Positions 3,092 through 36,332 of a stretch of DNA of 37,170 nt are shown here, in pieces (position 1 is the stretch's first letter; every line of letters begins with the position of its first letter). Position numbers and translations under genes: made by a program. Source of the stretch: a virus; the IMG/VR virus record IMGVR_UViG_3300025759_000260, positions 1 to 37,170 of that record; one strand, 5' to 3'. The notes under the pieces were generated by a model. It had not been told where the DNA came from. It worked only from the letters and a program-made list of their open reading frames with translations, and made no database searches.

Positions 3092-3415
3092 CTACCAGAG
3101 GTGTTTACAAGCCCAATACCGGGCCGTAGTTTTGTCTTTTGCGGTTTTGCAGTTATGTCGGGCGCGGAAGTTCTTCCTACGCTTGGGGTCTTTGTGTTGT
3201 CTGAAGTCTTGGTAATCCCTGTGGCCGTATGAAATTTTCTTTATCTTCTCCCCCTGCTTGGCGAGAACGACAAACTTCTTTTTTGAATCTTTCGGGGCGC
3301 GTTTAGGCTTATTGAATCCTGGGAAGGATTCACCTTTGTATTGTATCCGGCCAGAGGGCAAGCGTTTGAATTTCTGTGACACCACTAAAAATAATCTATT
3401 TCCCACCAAACGCAA
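3092..3415 (-). CDS. DUF5754-like small basic protein
   Basis: This is a very basic protein of about 96-107 residues. Its core reads KKISYGHRDYQDFRQHKDPKR followed by RARHNC and ends TARYWACKHLW. The pattern (FG.kgy.Dy..HkD..R...Y..RH, then T..fW..wlLW at the end) is what I recall of the DUF5754 family, known from large eukaryotic DNA viruses and some phages. Its biochemical role is not known to me. The frame opens with a TTG at 3415; GTG codons at 3385 and 3382 are equally good starts just before the conserved part. It is the first gene of the leftward block that begins below the structured element at 3455-3589. Confidence 0.7.
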   Translation of the reverse strand: MRLVGNRLFLVVSQKFKRLPSGRIQYKGESFPGFNKPKRAPKDSKKKFVVLAKQGEKIKKISYGHRDYQDFRQHKDPKRRKNFRARHNCKTAKDKTTARYWACKHLW

Positions 3416-3454: not shown

Positions 3455-3589
3455 CGTGTGTTTTAATGCGCTTCTTATAATACTCTATAAAAAGTCTTTT
3501 AAGACTTCAGTTGTGTTTGTCTGACTCAGATAAACACAACCAGCCTCATACGAGACTTTTTTTAAGGGGGTATAATAATAAAACACACG
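3455..3589. repeat. Nested inverted-repeat element, copy 1 (hairpin / terminator-like)
   Basis: Three concentric pairs of complementary arms are visible. The outer arms are CGTGTGTTTTA (3455-3465) with TAAAACACACG (3579-3589). The middle arms are AAAAAGTCT with AGACTTTTT. The inner arms are TTGTGTTTGTCT with AGATAAACACAA around a 5-base loop. The whole forms a long, interrupted hairpin of about 135 bases. The middle arms carry an A run on the left and a T run on the right, so the element could terminate transcription in both directions. A second copy lies at 36199-36332 in the same orientation. No ORF accounts for the conservation. It sits just upstream of the leftward gene block starting near 3415. 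Confidence 0.85.
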
Positions 3590-3862: not shown

Positions 3863-4174
3863 ATGAAATTGAAACCGAAAACAGTAGAAATAGATTACTC
3901 CATAACTTTTGAGAAACCCTTTCTGCATTTTGGGGAGGACGGACTTACGATAATCGTAGACATCGAAGAATTGGTGGACGATGGAGACGAAGGGAATCAA
4001 CTTCTAGTATCTTGGGAAGAAGTGGTTGACTTTTGCGAGGGTTCAGTTATTGATCTTGAGGATTTTGACGTGATCATCGAGAACTTCAAAACAGTTGCTG
4101 ACCGCCTTGAAGAAATCAAAAAACGACATTGGGATTTATACAATAAATCCCTAGCTAGTCGTTCAACAACATAG
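3863..4174 (+). CDS. Hypothetical acidic protein
   Basis: This 103-residue protein from ATG 3863 (MKLKPKTVEIDYSITFEKPF) has an acidic beta-rich first half and a helical C-terminal third (ENFKTVADRLEEIKKRHWDL). The frame is open upstream to a GTG at 3770, which would add 31 residues without recognisable structure, so I prefer the ATG. The 3' end overlaps the end of the convergent terminase gene by 20 bases. No family is recognised. The acidic composition and the position beside an inverted repeat would fit a small regulatory protein, but nothing shows this. Confidence 0.55.
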   Translation: MKLKPKTVEIDYSITFEKPFLHFGEDGLTIIVDIEELVDDGDEGNQLLVSWEEVVDFCEGSVIDLEDFDVIIENFKTVADRLEEIKKRHWDLYNKSLASRSTT

Positions 4175-5933
4175 AGTCGTTGTTGATCAGGGATTGCGAC
4201 ATCGCCTTGATCGTCCTCTTGGGGCGCATGGTGAACGGAGATCCCTCCTTCGGTGGGTCCATAGCTACCAACCCGTGCCTCTGCCTAGCGCAGTCAAGAG
4301 CGAGGAAGGCGGCATCAGCAATATCCGGTGACCTCCCGAACCTGGTCTTGAAGTCGGGCTTAGACTCAATCTTGATCTTGAGTGACCCAGACTTCACCAT
4401 ATCGTAGTTCCTAGCTACGATCTCTGCCGCCAGTTCATTCCCGATTCCTGAGATCTGTCCCGTCCGCATCAGTTCCTTACCCACGAACCAGAGTTCCGAT
4501 ACACGGTTCGTGTAGAGGTCGATGCCAGTAAGCCGACTGTTTGAGGACACCCGTTTGTCTGATGGCTTGCCCCCAAAGGATACACGTAAGATTTGAGGGG
4601 ACCACTCGCCAGAGAGGACATCGCAGAACGGCGCACCCGCACCAGTGGAGTCTACCGCTAAGTTATCCGGGGAGATGCCCTCCTTCTTACAGATGTTCAT
4701 GACCTGGGTGACGATCTGGTAGGTTCGTGGCACAGCCTTGTTCGATGAGTCATCTGTTAGCTGAAATAGCTTCCCGAACTCGAAAACAAACTGCCCCGTG
4801 GTCGAGTATCCAACCAGACCCGTAAAGAGAATCGTGCGGTCGCCTCCGTTGGTGAAAGCGGGGTCTAGCCCTGCGACCTTAACCGGAGTCCCTGCCCACG
4901 ATGCAGGGTTCATGGCTCCGCTCTGGGAGATTTCCGACTCCAGGTATATGCCCTCGTTCTCATCGCTATCGAAGAACACAGCGCGGACCATTCGCATATA
5001 TGCCCTCGACTCTTCGCCCAGCAACTTCTTATCCTCGTCTAGTTTCTCTTCTGTTGGGAGGTAGGTATACTTTGTCTCCCCAGCCATGATGTTGGGGCTG
5101 CGCTCACCGTCAAGCCGGATATACTTGCCGCCCCACTTTGTTTTCCATTCATCTGCGTGGAGGATGTCCATAGACTCCCATCCCAATAACGGCTCAGACC
5201 AGACCCCGAACGCATCAAACCTCGATGACGGGTTACTCATACCGATGATCTGAAGTTCCGGGTTCTTCGACAGGTTAGACAGACCAGCGTTGAGGATTGC
5301 CTCACTCAGTTCCGAAAGCTCGTCCCCGATGAGTATCACCTTCTTCTGCTTAATACCGATGAACTTTCCTACCGCTTCTCTTGTCTTGGACTTCTCTGCG
5401 GCGATGAGCGAAAGACCAGCCTTCTCGATCAGAGTGCCTTTTTCATTAATGTAAGCGATGTTTCCGATGGAGTCCCTGATCTTACCCGGCATCCCTTCCA
5501 CCACTGACAGTAAAGAGATCACTGAACCCCAAATCCTTTTTCGTGCCTCCCGAAGCGTGGTCGATGTCATCAGGACTAAGGTTTCGCTGGGCCGTGATAA
5601 CCAGTTCACGATCCCCCAAGCGGCCATAGTGTGTGACTTACCAGAACTTGCCGAACCCCCCACTGCGAGATACTTGTTGGATATCGCCTCTTTAATCATG
5701 AGGTCCGCCCACGGATGTCTCTCTAAGAGCGGCTCAGGCAGGTCTTCGTTATTCCATATAACATCAGCAATGCGCCAAAAGTAATATTCTTTAGCTTCTG
5801 GTTTTTTATGATTCGCAAATCCGTATAGGAGTGCGGTAAGGGTGCTGGTCACAGGGATCTTCAATCCCCCCACCATCATTTTATCACCAGCGTTGGTGAC
5901 TCTGGGTTCTAGTTTATTGACGGGCATGGACAC
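4155..5933 (-). CDS. terL: Terminase large subunit (DNA-packaging ATPase/nuclease)
   Basis: This 592-residue protein has the full two-domain plan of TerL. The ATPase carries a Walker A loop GGSASSGKS at residues 92-100 and a Walker B segment VILIGDELSE at about 199-208, with acidic D204/E205. The RNase H-like nuclease has its three acidic stations at GLDPAF (D357), VDSTGAG (D428) and SPDIADAA (D537/D540). TerL pumps DNA into the prohead at the portal vertex and cuts the concatemer. Length is typical for the larger members. It is transcribed alone leftward, with the small-terminase candidate diverging 58 bases upstream and a convergent gene overlapping its end. Confidence 0.95.
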   Translation of the reverse strand: MSMPVNKLEPRVTNAGDKMMVGGLKIPVTSTLTALLYGFANHKKPEAKEYYFWRIADVIWNNEDLPEPLLERHPWADLMIKEAISNKYLAVGGSASSGKSHTMAAWGIVNWLSRPSETLVLMTSTTLREARKRIWGSVISLLSVVEGMPGKIRDSIGNIAYINEKGTLIEKAGLSLIAAEKSKTREAVGKFIGIKQKKVILIGDELSELSEAILNAGLSNLSKNPELQIIGMSNPSSRFDAFGVWSEPLLGWESMDILHADEWKTKWGGKYIRLDGERSPNIMAGETKYTYLPTEEKLDEDKKLLGEESRAYMRMVRAVFFDSDENEGIYLESEISQSGAMNPASWAGTPVKVAGLDPAFTNGGDRTILFTGLVGYSTTGQFVFEFGKLFQLTDDSSNKAVPRTYQIVTQVMNICKKEGISPDNLAVDSTGAGAPFCDVLSGEWSPQILRVSFGGKPSDKRVSSNSRLTGIDLYTNRVSELWFVGKELMRTGQISGIGNELAAEIVARNYDMVKSGSLKIKIESKPDFKTRFGRSPDIADAAFLALDCARQRHGLVAMDPPKEGSPFTMRPKRTIKAMSQSLINNDSMLLND

Positions 5934-6605: not shown

Positions 6606-6905
6606 ATGAAAGGGGATGCTGTTAACCACCCAACTCACTACAAGTCTCACCCCTCTGGGGTTGAAGTAATCCAGATCACCGAACACATGAATTTTTGCTT
6701 GGGGAACGTGGTGAAATACATTTTGAGAGCGGAACACAAGGGGGCGACCATTCAAGACCTGGAGAAAGCCCAGTGGTATCTGAAGAGAGAAATCGAGCGG
6801 AGGAAGAAAGAAACTGAGATCGGGGAGGAAGTTGCCCCGTGCGACCCTCTGGACAACAGTAACCCAACGGATACTGTCACTGACTTTTTAAAACACTACT
6901 CATGA
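6606..6905 (+). CDS. DUF3310 family protein
   Basis: The 99-residue protein opens with the DUF3310 signature: VNHPTHYKSHPSGVEVIQIT, then NFCLGNVVKYILRAEHKG, then DLEKAQWYLKREIE. This domain is very common in phages, where it is often labelled a nucleotide kinase although the activity is poorly established. The acidic tail after residue 70 is variable. Its stop overlaps the start of the resolvase by 4 bases (ATGA), so the two are probably translationally coupled. Confidence 0.85.
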   Translation: MKGDAVNHPTHYKSHPSGVEVIQITEHMNFCLGNVVKYILRAEHKGATIQDLEKAQWYLKREIERRKKETEIGEEVAPCDPLDNSNPTDTVTDFLKHYS

Positions 6906-7381
6906 TTGTTGGGATCGACAACGGCATCGACGGGGGTATATGCGCCATCTCCCCCCACGGCAAGATCATTGATAAATGCCCCATGCCCATCCTAAAGCGG
7001 AAAGAAAAGCGTGAGGTTGATGTTTCCGCGTTCAAGAAGTGGATTCTAGACCTCAACACTGAACCCTTTATCCTGATTGAAGAACCTCTGAAACATGCGA
7101 AGTCTAGCCAAGCTATGAGGTCAATGTCCATCAACTTTGGAAAACTTCTTGGAGCTTGTGAGATCAAAGAGTGGCTTGTCGCCGCCGTAGAACCAAGAGA
7201 ATGGCAGGTAGAAATTCTTGGTAGGGTAGCTGCTGGACAAACTAAAACAGCCGCCCTCGACTTGGTTTCCGAAATTGCTCCAGAAGAAGATTGGACAAAG
7301 AAAGGCAGATCCACAAAACCCCACGACGGTATGATTGACGCATACCTGATAGCAGAATTTGGAAGGAGAAAATACCAATGA
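6902..7381 (+). CDS. RuvC-like Holliday junction resolvase
   Basis: This 159-residue protein has the RNase H fold of RuvC. The strand MIVGIDNGIDGG carries the first acidic residue (D6). FILIEEPL (E60/E61) is the second station. HDGMIDAYLIAEF (H141, D142, D146) supplies the C-terminal acidic cluster on the last helix. Such phage enzymes cut four-way and branched DNA during recombination and before packaging. It lies between DUF3310 and a small gene, with ATGA overlaps on both sides. A second, unrelated junction-nuclease candidate (endonuclease VII type) is at 18334-18807. Confidence 0.88.
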   Translation: MIVGIDNGIDGGICAISPHGKIIDKCPMPILKRKEKREVDVSAFKKWILDLNTEPFILIEEPLKHAKSSQAMRSMSINFGKLLGACEIKEWLVAAVEPREWQVEILGRVAAGQTKTAALDLVSEIAPEEDWTKKGRSTKPHDGMIDAYLIAEFGRRKYQ

Positions 7382-10783: not shown

Positions 10784-10813
10784 ATAGATGTCCGCCCAGT
10801 AGCTCTCTCTAAA
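10784..10813 (+). repeat. 30-bp direct repeat, left copy
   Basis: The 30 bases beginning ATAGATGTCCGCCCAG and ending CTCTCTCTAAA occur identically at 11496-11525. The two copies bracket the DUF6948-like gene and the glycine-repeat gene. Each copy also lies directly before a start codon (21 and 9 bases upstream), so it may act as a duplicated leader as well as a recombination site. Confidence 0.95.
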
Positions 10814-10834
10814 CAACAACAAAAAAAAAACAAA

Positions 10835-11197
10835 ATGAAAAATAATACAATAACCATTGACGGAATTGAATATATACGAGCCGACCAAGCTAGGGCGACC
10901 AAACTTGACGGAATGGAATACGTCATTATTCGGAGTGCCGATAGCGGAGTCCACGCTGGATATTTGAAAAAAGAAACCGCAGACGGAACGGTTACGCTTC
11001 TGTCGGCGCGTAGGCTGTGGTATTGGGAAGGGGCTGCGAGCTTATCGCAACTCGCGTCCGAAGGAACAAAATCTCCTGATAAATGTAAATTTCCTTGCGA
11101 AGTTGAGGAAATCAAAATTTTCAGGGTTTGCGAAATAATTGCAGCGACTGAATCAGCGATGCAAAGCATCGCAAACGTGGAGGTATGGGCAGTTTAA
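10835..11197 (+). CDS. DUF6948-like phage protein
   Basis: This 120-residue protein carries the phrases YVIIRSADSGVHAGYL, ARRLWYWEGAASLSQLASEG and CKFPCEVEEI, then ATESAMQSIANVEVWAV. These are typical of the DUF6948 family, a widespread phage family of unknown function. The 5' leader is a striking A-rich stretch without Shine-Dalgarno. It lies within the cassette bounded by the 30-bp direct repeats and overlaps the glycine-repeat frame by 13 bases. As I recall, this family is often followed by Gly-Tyr repeat sequence in other phages, so the pair may be a conserved unit. Confidence 0.75.
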   Translation: MKNNTITIDGIEYIRADQARATKLDGMEYVIIRSADSGVHAGYLKKETADGTVTLLSARRLWYWEGAASLSQLASEGTKSPDKCKFPCEVEEIKIFRVCEIIAATESAMQSIANVEVWAV

Positions 11198-11499
11198 TCG
11201 AAACCCAAATGAGAGGCTATGGAGATGGCTCTGGAGATGGCTATGGCTATGGCACTGGCACTGGCTCTGGCCATGGCCCTGGCTATGGCCATGGCTCTGG
11301 CTTTGGAGATGGCCATGGCACTGGCACTGGCTCTGGCCATGGCCCTGGCTCTGGCTCTGGCACTGGCACTGGCTCTGGCCATGGCCCTGGCTCTGGCTCT
11401 GGCACTGGCTCTGGCTCTGGCTATGGCACTGGCTCTGGCTCTGGCTATGGCTCTGACACTGGCTCTGGAGTTGGAGGTGGAGATGGCTTCTTTGGATAG
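11185..11499 (+). CDS. Glycine-dipeptide repeat protein (G-X)n
   Basis: This frame codes about 104 residues in which every second residue is Gly from position 11 on (GYGDGSGDGYGYGTGTGSGHGPG and so on). The alternate positions are Ser, Thr, Tyr, His, Asp or Pro. ATG 11185 has GGAGG only 1 base upstream; ATG 11209 is an alternative. The hexamer-based DNA also leaves the other two forward frames open: one would give Ala/Leu/Met repeats, the other Leu/Trp/His. The Gly frame is preferred for its start position and for the TAG falling at the repeat border, but the true frame is not proven. Function is unknown. Confidence 0.5.
   Translation: MGSLIETQMRGYGDGSGDGYGYGTGTGSGHGPGYGHGSGFGDGHGTGTGSGHGPGSGSGTGTGSGHGPGSGSGTGSGSGYGTGSGSGYGSDTGSGVGGGDGFFG
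11219..11472 (+). repeat. Degenerate hexanucleotide tandem repeat
   Basis: About 42 units of the form GGCNNN (mostly GGCTCT, GGCACT, GGCCAT, GGCTAT, GGCCCT, GGAGAT) follow each other without interruption. Higher-order blocks such as ggccatggccctggctctgg recur. All forward frames remain open, as expected for a repeat unit free of T-A-R combinations. Confidence 0.9.
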
Positions 11500-11525
11500 A
11501 TGTCCGCCCAGTAGCTCTCTCTAAA
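11496..11525 (+). repeat. 30-bp direct repeat, right copy
   Basis: This copy is identical to the one at 10784-10813. It contains the stop codon of the glycine-repeat gene (TAG at 11497-11499) and ends 9 bases before the ATG of the next gene. The flanking bases outside the 30-mer differ between copies, so the boundaries are sharp. Confidence 0.95.
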
Positions 11526-11534
11526 AATTGAAAA

Positions 11535-11783
11535 ATGAATAAAGATTTATTCTCAGGTTTTGATCCAGACCATCTATTGGTAATGGACGGGTATGATGAC
11601 TGCATCGTTGGGGTAGTAGAACGCTTCGGCCAAGAGCCTATCGTATGCTATGACAAAGAAAAGGTTCTTCAGCGGCTAGAGGCAGACGGCATGGGCAGAG
11701 ACGATGCTGAAGAGTTTTTCTACTTCAACCAGATCGGGTCGTGGCTAGGGGATTTAACTCCGTGCTTTGTATCGCTTAATTAG
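11535..11783 (+). CDS. Hypothetical conserved phage protein
   Basis: The protein has 82 residues. The stretches YDDCIVGVVERFGQEPIVCYD, EADGMGRDDAEEFFYFNQIG and GDLTPCFV form a compact alpha/beta pattern that I have seen in unannotated phage proteins. The function is not known to me. Its leader AAAAATTGAAAA recurs before the next two genes. It lies immediately right of the direct-repeat cassette. Confidence 0.7.
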   Translation: MNKDLFSGFDPDHLLVMDGYDDCIVGVVERFGQEPIVCYDKEKVLQRLEADGMGRDDAEEFFYFNQIGSWLGDLTPCFVSLN

Positions 11784-21458: not shown

Positions 21459-21479
21459 ATTAATAATAGTATCTTTTTT

Positions 21480-22250
21480 CTACGGTGGTGCGGGTGAGCT
21501 TGATGAGCTTGATGAGCTTGATGAGCTTGATGAGCTTGATGAACTTGATGAACTTGATGAACTTGACGCACTTGACGAGCTTGACGAGCTTGATGCACTT
21601 GACGAGCTTGATGCACTTGACGAGCTTGATGCACTTGACGAGCTTGAACTTGAACTTGAAGAACTCGACTCAGCGTCTTCCACTGCTTGAACTTCTACTT
21701 TTTCATAAAAGCCTTTGAACCGTATCTCCAATACAGAAACTGCTTTTGTGGCGTGAGGCTCCGTAGTTATCATGCTCGCGCTCCCATCCAACACGAACTC
21801 ATGGACTTTCTTAGATCCATCCGACCTCTCGTAAGTTACGAACACAGACCCTTCAGAGGGGAGTGCCGTCCGGGGCGTGATGGGAACAACCTTTATCTGA
21901 TAAAGAGAAGACTCGTTTAAGTCAATAATAGTAGGGTGTAAACCGTCATCGACAATTCCGTAAACTGGGCCTGGACCCCCCGAATAAAGGCCAGAGGTCT
22001 TGTAGTCTTGCCACCTAGCCCTCATATCACTAGGTAAGTTATCAACCACAGCAGATAGCACGGACTCCGCGTTTTCTGGTAGAGAAAAGTATTCGTGGTC
22101 TGTTACGATAGTCCTTTCAAACACCAAATCTCTCCAGTATCCCAAACCATATAGTCTGGGGAGAACTTGATTCAAATAAGGCAAAAACTGAGATTCAGAC
22201 TCAAGATAGCTTGAGAGAGTGGTTTTTAAGGTAGCTACGGTAACTGCCAT
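21480..22250 (-). CDS. Putative neck/tail protein with polyserine tail
   Basis: The protein has 256 residues from ATG 22250; a TTG six codons earlier is less likely. The first 195 residues form an ordinary globular domain (TTLSSYLESESQFLPYLNQV, VVDNLPSDMRARW, FVTYERSDGSKKVHEFVLDG). After EAVEDAES comes a run of about 60 Ser broken by occasional Ala, ending PAPP. The helical opening, with its Tyr/Leu-rich stretch, resembles adaptor or tail-tube proteins of short-tailed phages, though I cannot name the family. The Ser tail is built on 9- and 18-base DNA units. Confidence 0.75.
   Translation of the reverse strand: MAVTVATLKTTLSSYLESESQFLPYLNQVLPRLYGLGYWRDLVFERTIVTDHEYFSLPENAESVLSAVVDNLPSDMRARWQDYKTSGLYSGGPGPVYGIVDDGLHPTIIDLNESSLYQIKVVPITPRTALPSEGSVFVTYERSDGSKKVHEFVLDGSASMITTEPHATKAVSVLEIRFKGFYEKVEVQAVEDAESSSSSSSSSSSSASSSSSASSSSSASSSSSSSSASSSSSSSSSSSSSSSSSSSSSSSSPAPP
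21484..21672 (-). repeat. 9-/18-bp tandem repeats coding polyserine (with Ala)
   Basis: On the coding strand the units are AGC-TCA-TCA and AGT-GCA-TCA-AGC-TCG-TCA variants, all in frame. The length is a multiple of three, and Ala (GCA or GCG) appears only at fixed steps, showing 18-base higher-order duplication. Confidence 0.9.
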
Positions 22251-24196: not shown

Positions 24197-25462
24197 CTAC
24201 GGGTAGACTCCGTTCAGTTGAAGTTCCGTAGACTCAACGATAAACATATCTAGGCTTGTTTGTCTTACGGACACATTTATCAAATAATCTCCAACTAAGT
24301 CAGTCCCGTTAAAGCCCGACGTAGCGGCTAACGAGGTAGGCTGAATGTTTCGTTCAATATTTAAGCCAGTAGGTGCGGTAGAAGATCCGTTAGTAGTTCC
24401 GTTTATACCAACAGTAATCGCTCCGTGTATAGCAGCAGGGAGAGTGAACTGCCTAGCAGATGCTTGTGCAACAGGGGGGTTAGTGCTATATGCGGCATAC
24501 TTGTAAGATATGTCTTGTCGTTTTGGACGGGGTAGCAACGTCGAAGAGGACAATATGGAGTTTACTTTTGTTTCTGGGTTTGTAGTTAGGGTTCTTTCGA
24601 TTTTTGTTTTGAAAGGTCCAGAAGAGGGGGCGGTAACCGGGAACTCTGCCGTGCTGTCTTCACTATATTGCCCTATGTTATCCCCATTAGAATTAGACCC
24701 CGTAACCCAAGCAGAAACAAAATCAAAATCTACTGAGTCTAGTCTCTGAGGAATCCCTTCATACTTTTGAGATCCATAAATAGTCTCAAGATCTCTGTCG
24801 GCAATGACTCCCTCACTATCCTTAATACTCTGATTGATAAGCACATCGTGAAAATTATTTCCGTGCCTTACTTCATTAGTGTCCCCTGGAGAGTTAGTGA
24901 TACCTGCGCCCTCAAGGGTATATCCCGAAGGCACGACGGTCTTAGTTACCTTGATGTTTCCCTCTAGGTTTGCATCATACACGTAATCAACCGTTTGTGG
25001 AACTACAAATCTTCTTTGGACTGCTATGTAAATTCCAGATAAAGGATCTCCCACGCTTTTAATGGTATCCCCCACAAACCCATAGTCTGTAAACACGCTG
25101 TCTACTGTTCCGCCGGATGGGGGAGTCAAAGAAGACGGGTAATCGCTCCTTTTGATGATGTAAGTTCTAGTAAGCTCAGAACCATCCCGAAGCTCGTAAT
25201 TATACGAATCCTGTGAGTCCCTAGTGGCTGCGTAATAATACCTGTAAAGCTGCCCCTCCGAACTGTCTTGCTGCACGTAGACAAGTTCATGATTGGGCCA
25301 TTTAGTAGAGTCGGGATGGCTAGTTCCGTAAGCGGGTATATTCTTCCCCACTCTCTGAGTATCTACCGTCTCATAAAATAGAATGTCAGCTACGTTAGGG
25401 CTGACAAAAGTAAGAACTCTTTGTCTTTTGGGAGCAGGTTGGTTTCCAAAATTGACGGGCAT
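24197..25462 (-). CDS. Hypothetical large structural (tail/fibre-like) protein
   Basis: This 421-residue protein is rich in Thr, Ser, Asp, Tyr and Gly with a continuous beta-strand pattern and no catalytic motif. Segments such as GTSHPDSTKWPNHELVYVQQ, VGDTIKSVGDPLSGIYIAVQ and AAIHGAITVGINGTTNGSS, with the ending DMFIVESTELQLNG, look like tail or appendage proteins. The context of structural genes on either side supports that. Family membership is not recognised. Confidence 0.72.
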   Translation of the reverse strand: MPVNFGNQPAPKRQRVLTFVSPNVADILFYETVDTQRVGKNIPAYGTSHPDSTKWPNHELVYVQQDSSEGQLYRYYYAATRDSQDSYNYELRDGSELTRTYIIKRSDYPSSLTPPSGGTVDSVFTDYGFVGDTIKSVGDPLSGIYIAVQRRFVVPQTVDYVYDANLEGNIKVTKTVVPSGYTLEGAGITNSPGDTNEVRHGNNFHDVLINQSIKDSEGVIADRDLETIYGSQKYEGIPQRLDSVDFDFVSAWVTGSNSNGDNIGQYSEDSTAEFPVTAPSSGPFKTKIERTLTTNPETKVNSILSSSTLLPRPKRQDISYKYAAYSTNPPVAQASARQFTLPAAIHGAITVGINGTTNGSSTAPTGLNIERNIQPTSLAATSGFNGTDLVGDYLINVSVRQTSLDMFIVESTELQLNGVYP

Positions 25463-25474
25463 ATCTAATCTATA

Positions 25475-25729
25475 TTAAGGCTGATAAGAACCCGATGAAC
25501 TCGATGATCCAGATGAACTCGATGATCCAGATGAACTCGATGATCCAGATGAACTCGATGATCCAGATGAACTCGATGAACCCGAAGAACTCGATGAACT
25601 CGATGAACTCGATGAACTCGATGAACTCGATGAACTCGATGAACTCGATGAACTCCCCCCACCCCCCGCGTTTCCAATTAGCGTGGGGTTGTCGACCCCA
25701 TATAGGGTATTAGCTTTAGTTAACTTCAT
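25475..25729 (-). CDS. Small polyserine/glycine protein
   Basis: The protein has 84 residues. The N terminus MKLTKANTLYGVDNPTLIGNAG looks like a genuine globular or anchoring segment and is followed by GGGG. About 23 uninterrupted Ser come next, then SSSSSG units ending GSYQP. The Ser tract uses TCA-TCG-AGT codons, unlike the tracts of the neighbours. It is 12 bases upstream of the 421-residue gene. A repetitive, flexible protruding peptide is the likely shape; function is unknown. Confidence 0.65.
   Translation of the reverse strand: MKLTKANTLYGVDNPTLIGNAGGGGSSSSSSSSSSSSSSSSSSSSSSSSGSSSSSGSSSSSGSSSSSGSSSSSGSSSSSGSYQP
25492..25652 (-). repeat. 9- and 18-bp tandem repeats coding polyserine and SSSSSG
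   Basis: The coding-strand units are AGT-TCA-TCG (about seven copies, right part) and GGA-TCA-TCG-AGT-TCA-TCT (about four copies, left part). Units remain in frame. Confidence 0.9.
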
Positions 25730-33011: not shown

Positions 33012-35288
33012 TTACGGTAACTCCATCTGGTCACGGAGGTCCGCAGCAGCCTTAGCATCTCTAAGTGCTTGCTCCTGCTCAAACTTTCTTTGGCGAAGCT
33101 CCATCTCAAGTTCTGCTTTCTGTCGGCGGATCTGCATGTCCACTTGCGCTTGCTGCATCTTCAAGTCAGCGGCGTTAGGTTGGGGCGGTGCGTCCATTCC
33201 CTCTTGCCCTTCGGGTGACATCTCTGCGGCATTGGCTTGTGCCTCCGCTGCCTCCCGCTGCATCTTCTGCATCTTCTTAGCGGTATTATTGATCGCCTCT
33301 TCAGCATACTGAAGGACTTGCTTCGTGTTGCTGATGAGCGGCTGCAAGTCTGCGTCTCCGGCTGCAAGTTGCAGGGTGTCGCTGATGTGTTGGTAAAATG
33401 CTACAAGGGTCTGGTAAACTTGAACAGGGTCCACTGTCCCCTCGTCCATTCCCGTGATAATCTCTTGCAGGGCCGGAACGTGGATTTGCAGGTGCTTGCC
33501 GTGCAGTTCGTTCGACAGTGCCGGAACCTGCTTACCCTCCATAAGGTCGCTGTTCTCAAAGTAGGCGATCTTGTCGTCTACGGTTGGGCGACTACCTGGC
33601 TCCTTCGGCAAGTATCTGTCCGCAAGGTCATGTCCTACGCTGGTGGCTACCACATCGCGGTCGAGGTTGCGTTGACCCACTTCGTCGAAACGCCCGGACA
33701 ACGCTTGCATCTCGCGGAGCGCAACCAACCGCCCTGCCTTTGAACCGTTACCAATGGCGCGTAGTGCCTTGGTCTTGGTAAGGTCTAGCTTCTTGATAAA
33801 CTCTCTGGGGACTCCGCGAACCTCGCAGCGGCGGTAGAACTCCTTGATTAGTGGGTCTTGGCGTTTGCTATCGACAACGCGGCGAACAATCTCGCGCATC
33901 AACCGCGTCCACGACACATAAAACAGGTTCAAGGACGCACCTGACAAGCGGGTGCTGATCTCCAGGTCCGCTGAAACCTGTAACGAGTTCCTGTATGGTG
34001 AACCCTGTGTCGGGCTATAGGTGGAGAATGTGTCGGTGTTCTGCGCCAACTGGTTGCTAAGGTCATCCAAGGCAGGTTTCACTGCAGTCCCCAAGTTCGG
34101 GATCGCTCGCTCCACGACTCGCAAATCAGGACTCAGGACTGCGTATCCACCGTAGTAGGTGAACTGCAACTCGTCCAGGGCGCGTTGGTTCTCTGCCTGG
34201 AGCATGGGTGCGGAACCCAGCATAGCTCCGTCTACCATCTGGCAGCGGAGTCGGTTGCTTGTCTGGATGTGTGAAAAGATCCGCTGACCAAGACCCCGAA
34301 TGCTGTGGTAGGTTCCGTTGCTGCCCACCCCGTAGGCGAACATGATGTAAGCCTGTTCGGGAGACGAGAAACGACTCAGCTTCTTATACAGGAAGTCCTT
34401 GGGGTTATCTTCGGCACTGATGTAGTGGCTAACCGTCCCGTCCATTTCCCGAACCCAGAAGTGCAGGACCGCTACAGTCGGGTTCTGGATTCCGGTGTAG
34501 AGGTCGTTGTTCTTGAGTTCGGCTTGCAGTGACTCGTAGTCGGTATACATCGAACCACTGTCCCCGTAACGGCGACCTGTGGTCTTGGCGTTCTTCATGA
34601 TGACGCGCTTCACTTCATCGCAGTTCCAACCGATTTTCTCAGCGGCCTTCTCGTTCTTGATGAAGTGAAACAACTCATGCAGCAAGTAGTCCCTGCGACC
34701 CACCGCAACGTCAATGCAGTTCTCTGACGCAGGGGTCTGGCGCGGGATAAGGATGTCGGTGAACCCGCCCACCCGAAACTTCCAATCTTCCGGGGTGTCA
34801 AAGTAGGCGACCCCCACACCGTGCTTGATGAAGGTGGTGCAGAGCCGCAGGTAACTGCTGTGGAACTCGGGCCATGAACGCATCATGTGGGTCAGTTCCT
34901 CCCCAACGATGTCCTCAAACACCCCGCGCTCACTAGCCTCTCCGATGGTCCCCTTGACCTCAACGAGTTTCTCCAGCGAGGTGTATAGGTCCACGTAAGC
35001 TGACACGGATATGTCCAGCAGTCGAGTAGCCTCACCGAAGTTAAGGTTCGTCTTCATCGCCTGTCCACTAGCTGCCAACTTGTCGTTGTTGTAGGGGGCG
35101 GCTCCGTCAAACATTCCGTCAATCCTAGCGCGGTTAACTGCGGACTTCTCGTCTGCTTTGCGGAGGGTCTGGAAAATGGAGATTGCAGCCTTAACGTCTT
35201 TCAGCCTAGACTCGACGGGCTTGCCTTTTTCATCAAGTGACCCCAAATCGAGGGCATCAATTTCGAGGTGTCGGGATTGACTACTCAT
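33012..35288 (-). CDS. Portal protein
   Basis: This 758-residue protein has the portal plan: an N-terminal alpha/beta wing, a central stem and crown (FYVSWTRLMREIVRRVVDSK, RAIGNGSKAGRLVALREMQA), and a long Gln/Glu/Ala-rich coiled-coil C terminus (QEQALRDAKAAADLRDQME). The region of about residues 45-120 with DISVSAYVDLYTSLEKLVEV and the motif SLQVSADLEISTRLSG fit large portals of short-tailed phages. Portals form the dodecameric DNA gate that binds TerL. It is the third gene of the leftward block and 59 bases follow the previous stop. Confidence 0.87.
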   Translation of the reverse strand: MSSQSRHLEIDALDLGSLDEKGKPVESRLKDVKAAISIFQTLRKADEKSAVNRARIDGMFDGAAPYNNDKLAASGQAMKTNLNFGEATRLLDISVSAYVDLYTSLEKLVEVKGTIGEASERGVFEDIVGEELTHMMRSWPEFHSSYLRLCTTFIKHGVGVAYFDTPEDWKFRVGGFTDILIPRQTPASENCIDVAVGRRDYLLHELFHFIKNEKAAEKIGWNCDEVKRVIMKNAKTTGRRYGDSGSMYTDYESLQAELKNNDLYTGIQNPTVAVLHFWVREMDGTVSHYISAEDNPKDFLYKKLSRFSSPEQAYIMFAYGVGSNGTYHSIRGLGQRIFSHIQTSNRLRCQMVDGAMLGSAPMLQAENQRALDELQFTYYGGYAVLSPDLRVVERAIPNLGTAVKPALDDLSNQLAQNTDTFSTYSPTQGSPYRNSLQVSADLEISTRLSGASLNLFYVSWTRLMREIVRRVVDSKRQDPLIKEFYRRCEVRGVPREFIKKLDLTKTKALRAIGNGSKAGRLVALREMQALSGRFDEVGQRNLDRDVVATSVGHDLADRYLPKEPGSRPTVDDKIAYFENSDLMEGKQVPALSNELHGKHLQIHVPALQEIITGMDEGTVDPVQVYQTLVAFYQHISDTLQLAAGDADLQPLISNTKQVLQYAEEAINNTAKKMQKMQREAAEAQANAAEMSPEGQEGMDAPPQPNAADLKMQQAQVDMQIRRQKAELEMELRQRKFEQEQALRDAKAAADLRDQMELP

Positions 35289-35347: not shown

Positions 35348-35500
35348 TCAACGGGGGAAGATGTTTTTGAATGTGTCATAAACAAACACCAGTGACATCA
35401 ACATAGCAAACCCAAAAATAAACACGAAAAGCAGAACCGTTGATATAATAACACCACCCAACCCTGTATCCTGTAGGGTGTCTCTTCCACCCACAATCAT
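35348..35500 (-). CDS. Small single-pass membrane protein
   Basis: A 50-residue ORF from ATG 35500 (MIVGGRDTLQDTGLGGVIIS) has a hydrophobic span of about 25 residues (TVLLFVFIFGFAMLMSLVFV) and a short charged end (YDTFKNIFPR). Its ATG overlaps the stop of the upstream gene (ATGA), which supports real translation. It is too short for usual annotation. It might act at the membrane in assembly or infection, but no function can be read. Confidence 0.6.
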   Translation of the reverse strand: MIVGGRDTLQDTGLGGVIISTVLLFVFIFGFAMLMSLVFVYDTFKNIFPR

Positions 35501-35973
35501 CCTTCCTGAGCCTCTTCTTCTACTAGGAGCTTGATCTTGTCCACCGACATATGGACCCGCTTGCCTGTGTTCTTCTCCTGTAGCACAAGATACTCTTTGC
35601 TGAAACGGGGTGCAGGGTGCAGGACAAAGGGAACCCTGCGACCGCGCCCTTTTCGGTAGGGTTTAACGCGGTAGACCACTCCGGCCCCATCAATGGCGTA
35701 GTCCTCAAACCCAGGGATGGCTCGCCCACCCCACTCCTGGAATATCTTCTCATAGGTCAGGGTCTGGTCGAGGATCGGAACACCGCCCACGAAGTCTTCG
35801 TGATAGACCTTGCGCCTAATCCCGTCCGAACACTTGATGATGCAGTATGCCATGTTGGAGTTACGCACTACCTCGTAGCGAGTCTTCAACTTCTTTCTGA
35901 GGGGGACATAGACCATGACCCCACTTTCGGTCATCACATGGTCTGGGAAGTCAGGGTGTTTGTGTAGATTCAT
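35497..35973 (-). CDS. Double NUMOD4-like domain protein
   Basis: The protein has 158 residues. The second half carries EWGGRAIPGFEDYAIDGAGV followed by VYRVKPYRKGRG, close to NUMOD4 (W..IPGFE.Y.....G.V), a DNA-binding module normally found beside HNH homing nucleases. The first half (HPDFPDHVMTESGVMVYVPL and YCIIKCSDGIRRKVYHEDF) repeats the same layout more loosely. No HNH catalytic residues are present. It is the first gene of the leftward late block, so a DNA-binding regulator is one possibility and a remnant of a homing enzyme another. Confidence 0.65.
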   Translation of the reverse strand: MNLHKHPDFPDHVMTESGVMVYVPLRKKLKTRYEVVRNSNMAYCIIKCSDGIRRKVYHEDFVGGVPILDQTLTYEKIFQEWGGRAIPGFEDYAIDGAGVVYRVKPYRKGRGRRVPFVLHPAPRFSKEYLVLQEKNTGKRVHMSVDKIKLLVEEEAQEG

Positions 35974-36198
35974 TATATTTTACGTTTTAAGGTGTTTTTA
36001 TGTGTATCCGCTGTGGTTACCCTCTGAAACCCCAAAAACGCCTCAGAATCCAATCTGGGGCCATTACGGGGTATCTCTACCAAGTAGTCGTAACCTGGTT
36101 CGTTGAGAGTGCGCGGAGACATCGTTCGCCGCCAGAGTAGCGGACACAGGGTTCGGGGTCAAGCAGAAGTTGTGTTTTAATGCGCTTTCGATACAGGA

Positions 36199-36332
36199 AC
36201 GTGTGTTTTAATGCACAGCATCTTCTTATAAAAAAGTCTTCTAAGGTTTCAGTTGTGTTTGTCTGGCTCAGATAAACACAACAAGCCTCATAGGAGACTT
36301 TTTTTAGGGGTATATAACAATAAAACACACGT
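36199..36332. repeat. Nested inverted-repeat element, copy 2
   Basis: This is the same architecture and orientation as the copy at 3455-3589. The outer arms ACGTGTGTTTTA (36199-36210) and TAAAACACACGT (36321-36332) are a perfect 12-bp pair. The middle arms TAAAAAAGTCT and AGACTTTTTTTA match over about 10-11 pairs. The inner arms TTGTGTTTGTCT and AGATAAACACAA are as in copy 1, with loop GGCTC instead of GACTC. Changes between copies fall largely outside or compensate within arms: copy 2 AGTCTTCT pairs with AGGAGACT more fully than copy 1. Confidence 0.85.

Follow-up and report, generated by a model that had tools for sequence, protein, structure and literature searches.

Which role is played by a long nested palindrome that a virus genome carries twice, both times next to the genes of its virion? 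The window, that is, the whole stretch of DNA analyzed, is a virus record of 37170 bases, and two near relatives (52 and 54 kb) overlap it. In genome G001, window positions 11.5–36.8 kb are followed by ~20 kb absent from the window and then by window positions 1–2.5 kb; therefore, the window appears to cover only part of a phage of ~57 kb, the full map of which would be circularly closed or permuted. The phage family is uncultured, mostly marine, and common in metagenomes. Relatives occur in MAG contigs labeled Blastopirellula, Opitutae, and Altibacter, and because of these mixed labels, the host is uncertain. Copy 1 of the element, at what is termed the T site, has the leftward terminase on one side and a leftward block starting with a DUF5754 gene on the other. 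Copy 2, at the P site, has the leftward portal/capsid block on one side and rightward genes on the other. Hence, both copies lie directly upstream of a leftward gene block, as the earlier note on this DNA had claimed. In the window, a rightward 103-aa ORF (3863–4174) separates the terminase and copy 1. Among named phage records, no relatives of the portal-like protein and no BLAST match of the element itself were found, and the open-access papers searched yielded no literature on such paired palindromes.

The leftward block beyond the T site also holds a giant protein of about 3740 aa (L139:1–8956 and L138:17734–20000, − strand), with a subthreshold match to an ADP-ribosyltransferase polyvalent protein. 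The rightward region of G001 encodes an ArdC-like antirestriction protein (L138:11657–12526, + strand). Further repeats occur in the window: 9-bp tandem repeat arrays at 21469–21648 and 25452–25685, which code for long runs of serine in late genes read leftward; a 12/18-bp repeat array at 11179–11520 with many overlapping low-complexity frames; and a 47-nt direct repeat (10784–10830 and 11496–11542, 83% identical) flanking this array at 11.2 kb.

The duplicated structured element itself is confirmed. The two copies are 84% identical over 144 nt (blastn, E ~1e-40), and the three concentric arm pairs described previously—including the middle stem of an A-run and a T-run and the inner loop—are real in both (Table 1). 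The inner stem features 14 bp and a 3-nt loop in either copy. The outer arms are 11/11 complementary in copy 1 (3455–3465/3579–3589) and 94% complementary in copy 2 (36198–36213/36318–36333), and those of the window (TGTGTTT) and of G027 (TTTAGTATCTTATAG) are repeats of the inner half-site. Folded as RNA of the + strand, copy 1 reaches −52.0 kcal/mol (z −7.6) and copy 2 −59.6 kcal/mol (z −12.6), as judged against 200 shuffles, of which 0/200 matched either copy. The − strand folds are less stable, with −44.2 for copy 1 and −45.5 for copy 2. In a GC-corrected scan of the + strand in 150-nt pieces, both copies are the top structured places of the window. The earlier note recognized no known RNA family; in agreement, a search of the window and of 120 kb from six relatives against Rfam gives 0 matches at the gathering threshold.

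Table 1. Positions of the two element copies, their parts, and the neighboring genes in the window
Feature	Position	Strand	Remarks
T-site element, copy 1, three nested inverted repeats	3455..3589	.	79–99% conserved in close relatives
Inner palindrome, copy 1: GTTGTGTTTGTCTG-ACT-CAGATAAACACAAC	3510..3540	.	Near-invariant across 10 close copies
Middle stem, copy 1: A-run AAAAAGTCT (from 3489) with GAGACTTTTTTT (to 3563)	3489..3563	.	
Outer 3′ arm, copy 1	3579..3589	.	Pairs with 3455–3465
P-site element, copy 2	36199..36332	.	
Inner palindrome, copy 2	36252..36282	.	
Extra half-site GTTGTGTTTTAATGCGC adjoining copy 2	36169..36187	+	
Promoter-like TTGACC-17-TACTCT between copy 2 and late block	36134..36162	−	Seen by eye, absent from the consensus-scan output; identical in G004
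Protein of 158 aa, two repeated modules, first I-HmuI-like	35497..35973	−	Candidate binding partner
Portal-like protein, late block, P-site anchor	33012..35288	−	Named from position and length; no Pfam/PHROG match
Terminase large subunit, T-site anchor	4155..5933	−	
DUF5754 gene, first of late block downstream of the T site	3092..3385	−	Start codon by comparison with relatives

Both the T and the P element are kept in phages with 97 to 100% identical portal or terminase. Ten close copies show hardly any change in the inner stem and the 5′ outer arm and a decay of the 3′ outer arm—in several relatives to ATCACACG, with the 5′ arm retained. In nine close copies, 0/34 predicted pairs are changed on both sides; thus, what the clade of the window shows is kept sequence rather than covariation. 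In G005 (L126) and G006 (L127), the T copy is P-type in its left half and T-type in its right half, with the junction in the inner palindrome, a mosaic that indicates conversion between the T and P sites.

Related genomes do carry further copies, at the same two sites. Relatives of ~70% identity feature long palindromes there: the T palindrome mostly 0 to 200 nt after the terminase and the P palindrome about 500 to 700 nt upstream of the portal. With a T–P match defined as a score of at least 45—palindrome finder and threshold were chosen after the first genomes had been seen—a match occurs in 28/50 genomes having both sites, compared with a mean of 2.0 and a maximum of 7 in permuted pairings, a count in which clade members are non-independent and the permutation includes cross pairs within clades. 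These 28 genomes contain a dyad common to the sites of one genome, as expected of the operator of a sequence-specific regulator; in 22/50, the match is missing. In 14 genomes, the median T–P score within the genome is 121 versus 18 for orthologous T–T and P–P comparisons. Orthologous sites of different genomes are mostly unrelated in sequence, even among close relatives: G015 and G035 have 90% identical TerL and unrelated elements. Since the element sequences are genome-specific, one covariance model built from both copies of the window would probably fail to detect the majority of relatives. An exact scan for the outer-arm pattern was discarded, with 5/13 stretches (L005, L011, L012, L015, and L017) being poorly folding chance matches.

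The relative orientation of T and P varies: some genomes have them as direct repeats, others as inverted repeats. Two P copies, in tandem in G030 and G031, occur in these genomes and in others, and a third copy elsewhere in G011 and G029. In G016 and G019, the T–P match is kept despite a weak hairpin. Between T and P, the hairpin loops are conserved, differing at 7/58 positions, and the internal-loop bases are variable, differing at 51/182. Tandem repeats of the type CCGCTCAGAGATT surround the P site of G013 (L156, near 6860–7240), and similar CCGCTCA repeats are found in G014 and G025.

The elements share an architecture: a common lower stem of about TAAAAACTTTTC/GAAAAGTTTTTA, an asymmetric internal loop, and a genome-specific palindrome of 13 to 18 bp. 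Some palindromes are without any loop, e.g., GGAGTTACATTGGTTTCCGGAAACCAATGTAACTCC in G060. The lower stem reads CTTTTC/GAAAAG in many genomes and AGTCTC/GAGACT in the window; its most constant part, as seen in a clade of 19 copies, is the A-run and T-run. In this clade, 62 cells are changed on both sides versus 24 when shuffled (0/500), and 89.6% are paired versus at most 57.3% when slid; because some rows are T and P of one genome, the 19 rows are not independent events. The stem-preserving differences of the earlier note are, therefore, to be divided: in the window alone they are weak—of 21 upper pairs, 18 are unchanged between the copies, 1 is kept, and 2 are broken—and covariation support for the arms comes from the wider family only. 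In the inner palindrome, pair-keeping changes are nearly all two-sided Watson–Crick exchanges, and the inner pairs 24 to 37 of the 19-copy clade feature no one-sided pair-keeping change. A directional RNA is expected to favor G–U on its own strand. Sense-strand mismatches in 46 hairpins comprise 20 GT, 14 AC, and 25 other, hence no clear RNA bias, and the strand preference of the fold energy is inconsistent across genomes. Together with the variable orientation, this disfavors the phage-encoded structured RNA proposed earlier and points to a paired, orientation-free element acting at the DNA level.

The surroundings were judged from predicted promoters and operons on metagenomic contigs. At T sites, TTGAC and a −10 of TANNNT with normal spacing follow the terminase in 53% of 49 genomes versus 2% when shuffled. 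These promoters are of the type TTGACA-17-TAATTT and lie downstream of the palindrome, which places the T element outside the late-gene leader. At P sites, a promoter downstream of the element is recognized in only 16%. At palindrome-free T sites (G024, G026, G033, G055, and G061), the −35 lies 2 to 32 nt after the terminase match, compared with mostly 93 to 203 nt at palindrome-bearing ones. The T palindrome is, thus, a separable module, since the promoter directly follows the terminase where the palindrome is absent. The P element lies upstream of a gene of 138 to 171 aa, and its A-run contains, in several genomes, the stop codon of a small gene read leftward; more generally, the A-run often adjoins a stop codon, namely that of the terminase at T or of such a small leftward gene at P. 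In late genes downstream of T (L197 of G029, L201 of G030, and many relatives), the −10 often lies 5 to 8 nt before GTG/ATG, which suggests that their mRNAs may be leaderless.

The gene adjoining the P site encodes the I-HmuI-like protein of Table 1. Its AlphaFold2 model has a mean pLDDT of 86.6, and the first module aligns with residues 1 to 60 of the homing endonuclease I-HmuI (VIA-align Z 8.5, rmsd 1.9, 59 residues; next best 3.8). Neither Pfam nor, at E <0.001, Foldseek gives a match. As modeled, it is possibly a DNA-binding protein with an I-HmuI/NUMOD4-type module and without a recognized nuclease motif. The gene also occurs in genomes without a detected T–P pair, and the protein is neither exceptionally variable nor the fastest-changing one. 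Allowing for portal identity, its similarity and that of P give a partial r of 0.06, a physically confounded comparison; co-evolution of protein and element was discarded, the pattern seen in bins being inseparable from linkage. A search for genes whose presence follows the T–P pair found only partial associations.

Searches for known classes of paired sites were made as well. For a site pair of a tyrosine recombinase, PF00589 is found in 0/20 genomes and in 14/14 controls, a search that covered phage-encoded enzymes of the tyrosine type. For a hairpin telomere of the ResT/TelK type, PF16684 is found in 0/20 genomes and in one control. Both phage-encoded candidates were rejected. PF00940, which stands for a single-subunit RNA polymerase with N4-type hairpin promoters, is found in 0/20 genomes, but the controls are also silent. 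The giant late protein carries no signature of a virion RNA polymerase, the sub-cut-off ART-PolyVal match being the only one.

The reading preferred here, with a tentative probability of about 0.4, is a pair of cis-acting recognition sites that form the upstream boundaries of two late (virion) operons and are bound by a phage-encoded factor; we infer the binding, the protein involved, and the regulation of the late operons. Nearly as likely, and likewise doubtful, is a bidirectional intrinsic terminator or insulator that ends upstream leftward transcription, with the stem free in sequence and its likeness kept by conversion of copies and arms. Like phage bidirectional intrinsic terminators, the elements feature an A-run, a hairpin, and a T-run, adjoin stop codons, and precede promoters. 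In most T and P copies, a T-run comes after a stable hairpin when read in the same direction as the upstream gene, with weak folds in G016 and G019. The constancy of the A-run and T-run within the lower stem, the stop codons abutting the A-run, the strong folds, and the tandem P copies in G030 and G031 all suit a terminator, and the mosaic copies in G005 and G006 suit its combination with conversion. However, bidirectional terminators do not share the AT-rich, nested build with internal loops, the length of 75 to 145 nt, the matched pair per genome, or the difference in sequence between genomes; conventional GC-rich hairpins occur elsewhere in the family, e.g., AAAAAACCCGC..GCGGGTTTTTT. A simple terminator scan shows no clear enrichment at the elements and does not single them out, the folds in G016 and G019 are poor, and in genomes such as G026 and G033—both without a T palindrome—the promoter 2 to 32 nt after the terminase match leaves too little space for a terminator. 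The uniformity of the two copies and of the two arms could result from conversion alone, and the recognition-site and terminator readings are compatible with each other.

The remaining explanations are less probable. Replication origins, fork-arrest sites, or packaging sites, bound as a pair by one initiator or terminase protein of the phage, are unlikely. Each genome has two like-organized sites, one of them adjoining the terminase, and SPP1 sets a precedent with oriL and oriR, which are similar in organization and both bound by the phage protein gp38 (PMC6316719). However, oriL and oriR consist of direct repeats and an AT-rich region (PMC6316719) and the elements here of long palindromes; the presence of the elements is lineage-dependent, and the turning points of the cumulative GC skew near T are not decisive, as they coincide with a switch of gene direction. 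A transcribed RNA element—be it a processing site of RNase III or an antitermination leader of the put type—is improbable. With an asymmetric internal loop between its lower and upper stems, the element resembles an RNase III substrate, and the + strand fold is the stronger one in the window. Against this stand the inconsistent strand preference, the lack of a clear G–U excess, the free orientation, the lack of an Rfam match, and the T promoter downstream of the element. The put sites of HK022 resemble the elements as structured copies at operon heads, of which there are reportedly two. They act as a directional RNA (PMC9378689), whereas the elements are without strand preference and, at T, lie upstream of the promoter. 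Just as improbable is a selfish or neutral palindromic cassette, spread and homogenized by recombination without a function for the phage. The discrete unit of 75 to 145 nt, present or absent between terminase stop and promoter, its free orientation, and the third copies in G011 and G029 would fit such a cassette, but not the two fixed syntenic sites over large divergence, the conserved A-run/T-run stem, and the inner stem, which hardly varies in the clade of the window. REPs and similar palindromic repeats are likewise extragenic palindromes at termination-like positions (PMC3733652); unlike the two to four copies at fixed sites here, they have a high copy number per genome.

For a pair of recognition sites bound by a phage-encoded factor, the genome-specific dyad would most likely be bound, as double-stranded DNA, by a symmetric phage-encoded protein with a binding specificity that differs between phages. 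Stoperators of cluster A mycobacteriophages are short, asymmetric, numerous sites of a phage repressor. The elements resemble stoperators and operators as repeated sites of one genome with a phage-specific sequence; unlike stoperators, they are two to four long dyads, and a repressor is only putative. Since the common dyad would be bound by one phage-specific protein, both late operons could be switched or insulated together via the matched sites. The I-HmuI-like gene adjoining P is a mere candidate for the putative binding protein. The conserved lower stem, A5-C-T/A-G-T5, may also stop transcription arriving from upstream, and conversion may exchange copies between T and P and, thereby, help to keep them alike. 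Possibly, though the proposal remains a doubtful one, each phage has, at the boundaries of both late operons, a long palindrome of its own, along with a phage-encoded factor to match; site and factor would change together and set the specificity of late genes or of competition between close relatives. Distant palindromes that match within a genome and change completely between close phages are a record of either fast co-evolution of site and protein or strong conversion between distant sites—and either reading is directly testable.
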